Positions 8,046 to 32,639 of a stretch of 61,142 nt of DNA are shown piece by piece. Position 1 is the stretch's first letter, and the number at the start of each line of letters is the position of its first letter. A program made the position numbers and the translations under genes. The DNA is from Antarcticimicrobium luteum (GTDB lineage: Bacteria > Pseudomonadota > Alphaproteobacteria > Rhodobacterales > Rhodobacteraceae), in the NCBI RefSeq assembly GCF_004358185.1, contig NZ_SMUV01000048.1:1-61142 (forward strand). The letters are read 5' to 3'. Below the pieces are notes generated by a model, which did no database searches, was not told where the DNA came from, and worked only from the letters and a program-made list of their open reading frames with translations.

Positions 8046-8122
8046 GCGGTTGTAGCTCAGTTGGTTAGAGTACCGGCCTGTCACGCCGGGGGTCGCGGGT
8101 TCGAGCCCCGTCAACCGCGCCA
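8046..8122 (+). tRNA. tRNA-Asp (GTC), copy 1
   Basis: A 77-base cloverleaf: acceptor GCGGTTG pairs with CAACCGC, the anticodon loop is CTGTCAC with anticodon GTC, the T-loop is GTTCGAG, and CCA is encoded. Its D-loop reads AGTTGGTTAGA. Identical to the second copy except for one D-loop base. Confidence 0.97.
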
Positions 8123-8175: not shown

Positions 8176-8252
8176 GCGGTTGTAGCTCAGCTGGTTAGAG
8201 TACCGGCCTGTCACGCCGGGGGTCGCGGGTTCGAGCCCCGTCAACCGCGCCA
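8176..8252 (+). tRNA. tRNA-Asp (GTC), copy 2
   Basis: Same 77-base cloverleaf and encoded CCA as the upstream copy, 53 bases downstream. The only difference is C for T in the D-loop (AGCTGGTTAGA). The pair is probably cotranscribed. Confidence 0.97.
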
Positions 8253-27251: not shown

Positions 27252-27310
27252 CGGTCTGTTGGTCCTCTGAGTGTGTTTCGAGAGGGTCTGACCGGGCGCC
27301 TGAAACTGAA

Positions 27311-27335
27311 AAGCCGCCGGTCGGACCAGCGGCTT
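27311..27335 (-). terminator. Attenuator terminator of aroG
   Basis: AAGCCGCTGGT-CCG-ACCGGCGGCTT, an 11-bp stem (one G-T pair) with a three-base loop, whose 3' arm runs into a short T-tract (four Ts). It lies 59 bases upstream of the aroG start codon and 29 bases after the leader stop. Its 5' arm AGCCGCT can pair instead with GGTGGCT at the end of the leader gene (27371-27377). Confidence 0.85.
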
Positions 27336-27364
27336 GAAGGTTTGGGTGTATCGCGTCGTTTCGC

Positions 27365-27439
27365 CTACACAGCCACCTGCATCCGCTGGGGTGAGCGGAA
27401 CCAATAAAAGTAGGTGGCAAAGGTGTAGGTCTGGGTCAT
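27365..27439 (-). CDS. Aromatic-rich leader peptide of the aroG attenuator
   Basis: A 24-codon reading frame beginning MTQTYTFATYFYWF: seven of its first 14 residues are Tyr, Phe or Trp, with five in a row at positions 10-14. In the leader DNA, GCCACCT (27412-27418, codons 8-10) pairs perfectly with AGGTGGC (27372-27378, codons 21-23), which can also pair with the 5' arm of the downstream terminator. A ribosome stalled at codons 10-14 for lack of charged aromatic tRNA would cover the first segment and free the second to form the antiterminator. No strong ribosome site is seen. Confidence 0.85.
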   Translation of the reverse strand: MTQTYTFATYFYWFRSPQRMQVAV

Positions 27440-27586
27440 GGCATATCGAATAGGGGATTTCGGCCGGTGTGTCACCCCGGAAATTGGCGTTTTCGGGGAG
27501 GGGGGGTGGGTCGACCCAGCGCGGAACAAGGTGCAAAGCGCCGCCGGGCAGCGCCCGGTCGCGCCCTCTGGGGTGCGGACTGGGGT

Positions 27587-27635: not shown

Positions 27636-27662
27636 TTGTGCGGGTGCAGGTTTGCCGCACTC

Positions 27663-27765
27663 ACCCGGGGGGTCCCGACAAGGGGCTGAGATACTGATCG
27701 TGCGGCAACGCGCAGCGCAGTGACCCGACGAACCTGATCCAGTTCATACTGGCGGAGGGATGGTG
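27663..27765 (+). ncRNA. TPP riboswitch (THI element) of thiCME
   Basis: The conserved words are present in order: ACCCGGGGGGTCCC, GGGGCTGAGA, then TGACCC, GAACCTGATCCAGTTCAT, ACTGGCGGAGGGA. These form the P2-P5 helices of the thiamine pyrophosphate aptamer. It ends about 113 bases before the thiC ATG and should lower expression of thiC, thiM and thiE when TPP is plentiful. Confidence 0.96.
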
Positions 27766-27791
27766 CACCGGCTGCGCGGCCATGTCCGTGA

Positions 27792-32094: not shown

Positions 32095-32221
32095 CCCGTC
32101 CCTTCGCCGGCATGATCCGGATCAGGTTCAAAGGGTCACTGCGCTGCCCGGGATCCCGGCCCGGATATATCGGGTCGGCGGGCCAGCAGAGTCTCAGCCC
32201 CTTGTCGGGGCCCCCCTCGGT
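32095..32221 (-). ncRNA. TPP riboswitch of thiD
   Basis: On the minus strand: GAGGGGGGCCCCGACAAGG (start), GGGGCTGAGA, then TGACCCTTTGAACCTGATC and GCCGGCGAAGGGA. It shares CCCGACAAGGGGCTGAGA with the thiC riboswitch but has a longer P3 extension containing ATATAT. It ends about 48 bases before the thiD start. Confidence 0.96.
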
Positions 32222-32305: not shown

Positions 32306-32353
32306 CAATATCTATATATTGACAGTGATTGCCGGTAGGCATCTATATGATGT
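32306..32353 (+). promoter_or_regulatory. Pair of palindromes spaced like NrdR boxes
   Basis: CAATAT-CTAT-ATATTG (32306-32321) and CATC-TATAT-GATG (32340-32352) have centres about 32 bases apart, the three-helical-turn spacing typical of tandem NrdR boxes upstream of ribonucleotide reductase operons. The AT-rich cores agree with the loose NrdR consensus, but the outer bases are not a good match. Confidence 0.45.
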
Positions 32354-32356
32354 TGT

Positions 32357-32516
32357 CTTGGTGCCCGCGACTCGATGTGGGTGAAAAAGGGAAGCCGGTG
32401 CAAACCCGGCGCTGCCCCCGCAACTGTGAGCGGTGAGCCGAGGCCCGTTGACCCACTGGCGCAATTGCCGGGAAGGGGGGCCAGAGCGTTCGAACCGCGA
32501 GCCAGGAGACCTGCCA
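32357..32516 (+). ncRNA. Cobalamin (B12) riboswitch of nrdHIEF
   Basis: The B12-box and core are clear: GGTGCCC near the start, GGGAAGCCGGTGCAAACCCGG (core shown in part as GCCGGTGCAAACCCGG), GCTGCCCCCGCAACTGTGA, and the closing GCCAGGAGACCTGCC. It ends about 123 bases before nrdH. B12 riboswitches upstream of B12-independent isozymes switch them off when cobalamin allows a B12-dependent alternative, here presumably class II reductase NrdJ encoded elsewhere. Confidence 0.95.
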
Positions 32517-32639
32517 TGACACGGAAACGACACTGGGCGGAGGGCCCGGGGGTGCCGAGTTGTCCGTGATCCCTCGTGGCGCGGCGGTCTGCGTCTCTGT
32601 CCCTCGCGTCCCGACCGGCACAGAGAACAGGAGACCCCG

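Follow-up and report, generated by a model that had tools for sequence, protein, structure and literature searches.

A predicted ribosome-mediated attenuator with an aromatic-rich leader peptide upstream of class I DAHP synthase in Antarcticimicrobium luteum and relatives

Results

Organization of the DAHP synthase locus

The stretch of DNA analysed here, referred to as the window, covers 61,142 nt of the Antarcticimicrobium luteum genome and carries on its reverse strand a gene for a class I DAHP synthase, flanked by a convergent methyltransferase-like gene and by the divergent gene thiC (Table 1). Against the AroH subfamily model the enzyme scores 469.2, slightly over the cut-off of 463, while against the AroG equivalog model it scores 509.5 and misses the cut-off of 568. 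Its top matches among solved structures are chains of Phe-regulated DAHP synthase, e.g., 1gg1. Class I DAHP synthase is rare in the host’s family: among 394 sampled genomes, 17 exceed the cut-off, host included. The host also carries one class II DAHP synthase (C12:126918-128228).

Table 1 Features of the DAHP synthase locus and its leader. Positions are those of the window.
Feature	Position	Strand	Basis or remark
Predicted −35 box GTGACA	27470..27475	-	Comparison with alphaproteobacterial leaders; 17 nt to −10
Predicted −10 box TATTCG, 7 nt before leader ATG	27447..27452	-	Comparison; start predicted at or near ATG
Leader peptide ORF, 24 codons + TAG, MTQTYTFATYFYWFRSPQRMQVAV	27365..27439	-	ORF reading; similar leaders in relatives
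Segment 1 outer arm GCCACCT (1:2 stem of the sequence-only reading), partner 27372-27378	27412..27418	-	Intact in 3/5 clade members
Control codons 10–14, Tyr-Phe-Tyr-Trp-Phe (TAC TTT TAT TGG TTC)	27398..27412	-	ORF reading; stall model
Segment 1 inner arm TCCGCT, partner AGCGGA 27387-27382	27394..27399	-	Paired in 5/5 clade members
Segment 2, CCAGCGG, antiterminator 5′ side, corrected from the sequence-only reading	27383..27389	-	Conservation, duplex energy
AGGTGGC, 3′ arm of outer 1:2 stem (segment 2 of the sequence-only reading)	27372..27378	-	
Segment 3, CCGCTGG, partner of segment 2 or segment 4	27326..27332	-	Conservation, duplex energy
Terminator hairpin (segments 3:4), 11 bp, −18.1 kcal/mol, then TTCAGTTT	27311..27335	-	Pattern scan; GC-rich
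Likely Shine-Dalgarno AGAGGA of DAHP synthase	27263..27268	-	Read from sequence; 3′ of terminator, no overlap
Class I DAHP synthase (AroF/G/H type), 353 aa	26190..27251	-	TIGR00034 491 bits vs cut-off 173.2

A sequence-only reading of the window had proposed that the gene is preceded by a 24-residue leader peptide with the run YFYWF (Y10 to F14) and seven aromatic residues among its first 14, and the ORF in Table 1 has exactly this composition. The leader region folds better than its shuffles (z = −3.55), with 1 of 200 equally good. The 11-bp terminator hairpin of the same reading was recovered by pattern scan; the T-tract that follows it in the window is weak (TTTTCAGTTT).

Several other RNA elements lie in the window. 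A TPP riboswitch (27656-27778, +) precedes thiC (27879, +) and points away from the attenuator, and the 440 bp from the leader ATG to thiC thus hold the beginnings of two unrelated RNA switches. A second TPP riboswitch (32096-32220, −) and a cobalamin riboswitch (32342-32532, +) are arranged back to back, and a tandem pair of tRNA genes occupies 8046-8119 and 8176-8249 (+). Rfam returned five matches in the window at the gathering threshold and none at the leader; in 15 of the 110 loci introduced below, its sole match was the TPP riboswitch beside the window’s own locus (L001).

Alternative pairings of the leader RNA

The pairings first proposed for segments 1, 2, and 3 fared differently. The antiterminator originally written, GGTGGCT with AGCCGCT, can be formed with two G-U pairs and a duplex energy of −9.7 kcal/mol; we dropped it in favor of CCAGCGG (27389-27383) with CCGCTGG (27332-27326), a perfect 7-bp duplex of −12.5 kcal/mol that is stronger and kept in relatives. 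Judged on the window’s sequence by itself, 2:3 complementarity does not significantly exceed that of shuffles (p = 0.11, or 0.245 with other scoring); support for this pairing comes from conservation.

Five loci of the window’s clade were aligned (L001, the window, with L007, L011, L013, and L099; SH-aLRT 99 on a quick tree). The terminator, the CCAGCGG/CCGCTGG antiterminator, and an inner 1:2 hairpin, TCCGCT/AGCGGA, are paired in all five. The inner hairpin changes from T-A to C-G in L011 and L099, and the 2:3 pairing changes from A-T to G-C in L011 and is G-T in L099. As for the outer 1:2 stem of the sequence-only reading, its complementary letters are indeed present and GCCACC/GGTGGC holds in three of the five, with an A-T to G-C change in L013, but the stem is broken in L011 and L099. 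Aligning the regions upstream of relatives’ DAHP synthase genes, as that reading had suggested, reveals a kept peptide, kept stems, and compensating changes.

An aromatic-rich leader precedes most of the class I DAHP synthase loci examined

Using a criterion of 12–45 aa with ATG, GTG, or TTG starts, we found such a leader at 89 of the 110 loci that encode class I DAHP synthase; these 110 remain from 131 after removal of 21 (L012, L093, L100-L102, and L116-L131), which comprise weak TIGR00034 matches and the class II enzyme. Every one of the 17 loci of the host’s family has it (window counted; these are all the genomes over the cut-off among the 394 sampled), as do 11 of 13 genomes from other alphaproteobacterial families (drawn from 385 sampled; L104 is one miss) and 61 of 80 named loci, the best 80 of 590 relatives. 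The named loci span Pseudogemmobacter, Leisingera, Devosia, Mesorhizobium, Bradyrhizobium, Xanthomonas, Dyella, and Rhodanobacter, as well as Burkholderiaceae, Oxalobacteraceae, Comamonadaceae, and others. By the same criterion 21 of the 110 loci lack a leader, including L082 and L104, which have just 49 and 157 nt of upstream sequence.

Controls were run under a narrower criterion, an ATG-initiated ORF of 14–40 aa within 320 nt upstream. Among the first 89 loci, 68 hold such an ORF with at least four aromatics per ten residues and 57 hold one with at least six. Dinucleotide shuffles yielded 4.8% and 0.04%, respectively, and the opposite strand 4 and 0 of 89. Part of the hits at the loosest threshold will nevertheless be chance, and we regard L069, L091, L035, L059, and L078 as doubtful among the 89 leaders. 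The two enterobacterial hits, L069 and L091, look like chance because the hairpin of L069 is not of the conserved type and the script found no terminator in L091. A terminator-like hairpin with a T-rich tail was found by this script in 87 of the 89 leader loci, L035 being the other exception, and long T-runs follow the same hairpin in many relatives.

Two outlying ORFs deserve mention in their own right. In L078, an Anaerolineae MAG (a Chloroflexota bin), an aromatic-rich short ORF (RYFSFFSWYGYF) stands before DAHP synthase with an unrelated 17-bp hairpin lacking the GGCGG design, and may reflect a separate origin, mis-binning, or chance. The leader-like ORF of L105 (MNAARTLSARFYPRSIAGGIRGA) resembles that of its tree neighbor L109 with only Phe-Tyr remaining, and is perhaps a decaying sensor.

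Elsewhere in the host genome, we scanned 400 nt ahead of three further aromatic genes. The best short ORFs reach 2 aromatics per ten residues at trpE, 1 at the class II DAHP synthase, and 3 at pheA, against a threshold of four. A coding-length frame stops just 5′ of trpE, and an attenuator could sit further up an operon.

The predicted switch covaries across relatives

Across loci, the design of the switch is simple. The leader tail carries GCGG, the terminator 5′ arm CCGC, and the terminator 3′ arm GCGG in 79 of 84 analysed loci (the 89 minus L035 and L091, where the script found no terminator, and three without the CCGC anchor), such that segment 2 imitates segment 4; the core is absent from the tail in L015, L019, L022, L031, and L115. 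At one position beside the core, segments 2, 3, and 4 read T-A-T in 41 loci, C-G-C in 9, A-T-A in 2, and a mixture in 27. At another they read G-C-G in 75, A-T-G in 3, and G-T-G in 1, the latter two patterns occurring exclusively in the window’s clade.

In permutation counts that ignore the relatedness of the loci, Watson-Crick pairing between segments 2 and 3 at the first two positions (78 and 52 of 79 loci, relative to 72.3 and 34.7 in permutations) was matched by none of 5000 permutations, and pairing at the outer two positions by 5 and 10. When reduced to 52 distinct cores, with relatedness again ignored, the first position was matched in 13 of 5000 permutations and the second in none, and the outer two positions gave no clear signal (302 and 817 of 5000). 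Locus by locus, contiguous 2:3 complementarity exceeded that of shuffled tails at p ≤ 0.05 in 44 of 87 loci and missed it in 43; using duplex energies, 36 of 65 loci beat their shuffles.

These comparisons bear on two rival explanations. The first is that a chance aromatic-rich ORF lies beside the ordinary terminator of an upstream transcript. GC-rich DNA does yield hairpins and short ORFs by chance, and a pattern scan of 2.5 kb returned two terminator-like sites where 1.5 are expected; however, the upstream neighbor thiC is divergent, and leader and stems are conserved and covarying in relatives. In our view the comparison with relatives refutes this explanation, leaving it a practically negligible probability. 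The second rival is translational control, in which leader structure would hide the ribosome binding site of DAHP synthase. While the leader ORF and stems equally fit a translational device, about 40 nt separate the end of the hairpin from the Shine-Dalgarno-like AGAGGA and 60 nt separate it from the start codon, and the hairpin is followed by T-rich sequence that in many relatives includes long T-runs. We consider translational control very unlikely, and the comparison with relatives supports the core claim of the sequence-only reading, a complete ribosome-mediated attenuator with a mixed aromatic leader.

The leader is probably translated from the 5′ end of its RNA

A promoter-like element at the locus is visible by comparison only, a stricter sigma-70 consensus scan having returned no promoter-like site there. 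We defined a promoter-like pair as at least four of six matches to TTGACA, a spacer of 16–18 nt, and a −10 element starting with TA. Of 45 alphaproteobacterial leaders, 40 have such a pair ending 5–9 nt ahead of their ATG (6 or 7 nt in 38), where shuffles expect 0.36; ahead of the DAHP synthase start, none of the 45 loci has one. A Shine-Dalgarno-like motif precedes 1 of these 45 leaders compared with 40 of 45 DAHP synthase starts. Given a promoter-like element approximately 7 nt before the ATG and no Shine-Dalgarno, the alphaproteobacterial leader ORF is probably leaderless, with transcription starting at or near its ATG. In Xanthomonadales the pair was present in 4 of 7 loci (0.10 expected) and the Shine-Dalgarno-like motif in 0 of 7. 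Burkholderiaceae have a TATAAA-like box further upstream, so a leaderless start does not apply to them.

An alphaproteobacterial precedent exists in Sinorhizobium meliloti, whose trp attenuator RNA likewise begins with the leader ATG, that of trpL, and acts in trans according to PMC7298713 and PMC10117765. This raises the alternative that the DAHP synthase leader RNA or its peptide also acts in trans, like rnTrpL and peTrpL, attenuation being one of two roles. A predicted leaderless small RNA of similar design speaks for such a second role. The Sinorhizobium system responds to Trp and sits at trpE(G), and its trans roles have been tested; those of the present RNA are hypothetical. Against a role in trans, tails such as HMADGG, PLADREG, SSLAAGG, and PLAEEG encode the GCGG-type pairing RNA, from which we infer that the ends of the leader peptides are kept for RNA pairing and not for the peptide. 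On balance, a role in trans seems unlikely.

A stall model places the control codons at the switch

To relate ribosome position to RNA folding, we let the free RNA begin 12 nt past the first base of the A-site codon; offsets of 9 or 15 shift the result by one codon. Over 84 loci, a ribosome placed on the last aromatic codon gave a mean antiterminator probability of 0.87, compared with 0.60 for shuffled tails, and 78 of 84 loci exceeded their own shuffled-tail mean (Wilcoxon p = 9 × 10−15). With the ribosome at the stop codon the mean was 0.14, a fall that is in part trivial because less RNA is free, the shuffled tail serving as the control. The mean probability that segment 3 pairs upstream is 0.87–0.90 when the ribosome stands anywhere between the seventh codon ahead of the last aromatic codon and that codon itself. 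It is 0.52 two codons past the last aromatic codon and 0.35 four codons past it, the drop coming 1–4 codons after it.

In the window, modeled stalls at codons 10–13 (Tyr, Phe, Tyr, Trp) gave antiterminator probabilities of 0.99–1.00. At codon 14 the value was 0.86, just slightly higher than the shuffled control at 0.75, and at the stop codon 0.34, above the mean of the loci. For nascent RNA reaching to segment 3, the extended antiterminator amounts to −28.5 kcal/mol with the ribosome at codons 10–13 and −25.5 kcal/mol at codon 14. With the ribosome stalled at F11, Y12, or W13, the first free nucleotide is 27397, 27394, or 27391, respectively; segment 2 stays intact in each case, while 2, 5, or all 6 nt of the segment 1 inner arm (27399-27394) are hidden. 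The folding model thus agrees with the proposal that stalling at the control codons would mask segment 1 and favor antitermination. Without a ribosome, the equilibrium fold favors upstream pairing of segment 3 (0.65 in the window, 0.60 on average), so that any termination in the absence of translation would hinge on how fast the alternative structures fold.

The ORF, the hairpins, their conservation and covariation, and the place that the control codons take with respect to the switch are computed results; from them we infer a start site, stalling, termination, and the amino acids that matter, as follows. Transcription would start at or beside the leader ATG, and a ribosome would begin the leader on the 5′ end of the RNA. 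When charged aromatic tRNAs are scarce, it would stall at the YFYWF codons, segment 2 would pair with segment 3, no terminator would form, and DAHP synthase would be transcribed. When they are plentiful, the ribosome would reach the UAG and cover segment 2 or let it refold on segment 1; with segment 2 unavailable, segments 3 and 4 would pair and transcription would end after about 132–137 nt. The cell would thus probably raise DAHP synthase expression when short of aromatic amino acids. Ribosome-mediated transcription attenuation is, with high confidence, the best explanation of the DAHP synthase leader.

Which amino acids the leader would sense

All 89 leaders contain Phe, 86 contain Tyr, and 68 contain Trp; 65 hold all three, 21 hold Phe and Tyr, and three hold Phe and Trp. 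Summed over the 89 leaders, residues number 295 Phe, 224 Tyr, and 74 Trp. As 21 leaders have no Trp, the suggestion of the sequence-only reading that one leader senses all three aromatic amino acids is plausible but no more.

A narrower alternative accepts the attenuator but confines its sensing chiefly to Phe, or to Phe and Tyr, with Trp as an incidental codon. We assign this somewhat less than even chances. It draws on the composition just given, on the enzyme’s closeness to Phe-regulated chains of solved structure, and on the aroR attenuator of Corynebacterium glutamicum, whose Phe-Tyr-Phe leader is reported in PMC11802643 to respond to Phe and not to Tyr. Against it, 68 leaders carry Trp, FYWF is kept in four of the five members of the window’s clade (L013 has VWFYYF), and in the stall model a ribosome at W13 covers the inner arm of segment 1 completely, with a predicted antiterminator probability of 1.00.

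Codon choice also sets the leaders apart. They favor TTT (0.71) and TAT (0.60) relative to 0.16 and 0.38 in the downstream genes, and the share of T-ending Phe and Tyr codons is higher in the leader than in the gene at 83 of 89 loci, a preference that may slow decoding or keep the stretch unstructured.

Leader and regulator proteins

The original reading suggested sensing through the peptide rather than by a TrpR or TyrR repressor, and the host genome agrees with this: neither PF01371 (TrpR) nor TIGR04381 (the HTH model of TyrR) gave a match there (E ≤ 0.001), while the E. coli control was positive for both. We extended the survey to 27 chosen loci, for which 26 genomes were searched. TyrR occurs in 8 of 8 Enterobacterales/Vibrionales genomes, 0 of 15 attenuator genomes, and 0 of 3 others. 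TrpR exceeds the cut-off in 8 of 8, 3 of 15 (L026, L027, and L033, all Xanthomonadales), and 0 of 3, respectively. Two of the eight, L069 and L091, had passed the leader threshold as doubtful hits. Because the eight form one lineage on the tree, the split between TyrR and leader may be a single historical change.

Mapped onto the enzyme tree, leader presence takes at least eight changes, compared with 19.5 when shuffled. One far-reaching reading of this distribution is that the ancestral switch of proteobacterial class I DAHP synthase was a leaderless three-amino-acid OR gate working without a regulator protein, that its prematurely ended RNA of ~135 nt and its 24-residue peptide have additional trans targets, and that TyrR and TrpR replaced it in the line of Enterobacterales and Vibrionales. 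We hold it to be improbable; its leaderless part does not fit Burkholderiaceae.

Horizontal transfer of enzyme and attenuator into the host’s family is suggested by the rarity of the enzyme there and by two separate clades of the family, but we do not claim it. An AU test did not reject a single clade for the family (p = 0.47; group picked after viewing the quick tree).

Discussion

For trp and phe genes, attenuation is a textbook mechanism. In E. coli, trpL and pheL each answer to one amino acid and act on end branches of the pathway (trpE, pheA) as opposed to its shared first step, while thrL and ilvL show that one leader can pool shortage of several amino acids, though for threonine and the branched-chain families and not for aromatics. 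The DAHP synthase of E. coli is of the aroAI-alpha type. The leader described here would follow the logic of trpL and pheL, with control codons and the alternative hairpins I:II, II:III, and III:IV, as set out in PMC1183508. In E. coli the first step is instead controlled by TyrR and TrpR, and a 2016 survey of proteobacterial regulons lists attenuation for trp and pheA and TyrR or TrpR for the DAHP synthases of several gammaproteobacterial lineages (both PMC5343134).

Attenuators before DAHP synthase have been proposed in other groups. That of C. glutamicum aroR-aroF is attributed to Neshat et al. 2014 by PMC11802643 and was predicted in PMC4046766. As in our case, an aromatic leader peptide precedes DAHP synthase and ribosome stalling raises transcription; unlike it, the organism is an actinobacterium, Phe-Tyr-Phe is named in its leader in place of seven aromatics, and the passages describing it mention no Trp. 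TIGR00034 also matches in the C. glutamicum control genome. For Vibrio, a 2005 paper lists attenuators before aroAI-alpha > tyrA operons that were taken from a prediction website (PMC1173090, Table 7), and a Shewanella screen includes aroF among its attenuators, gives tyr-tRNA as the signal, and cites a 1980 E. coli paper for it (PMC2659441, Table 3). These too place an attenuator before a DAHP synthase gene, but the passages on them give predictions without a leader peptide sequence. L089, the sole Vibrionaceae locus among those we examined, has no such leader.

In the open-licence literature we found no description of this leader, although Vitreschak et al. 2004, on proteobacterial attenuators, and Neshat et al. 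2014 may hold one. The DAHP synthase leader apparently forms a widespread family that has no counterpart in Rfam: its mechanism is classic, and its place before DAHP synthase is little described.

By this account, classical attenuation would act where the shikimate pathway begins, in Alpha-, Beta-, and Gammaproteobacteria alike, and it offers a possible means by which bacteria that have no TyrR regulate DAHP synthase. Leaders with codons for up to three amino acids, together with natural variants lacking Trp, offer a testable series on how a multi-input attenuator weights its signals. An Rfam entry and annotation of the leader peptide would follow directly. If the leaderless start is right, such a sensor needs little beyond a 5′ AUG.
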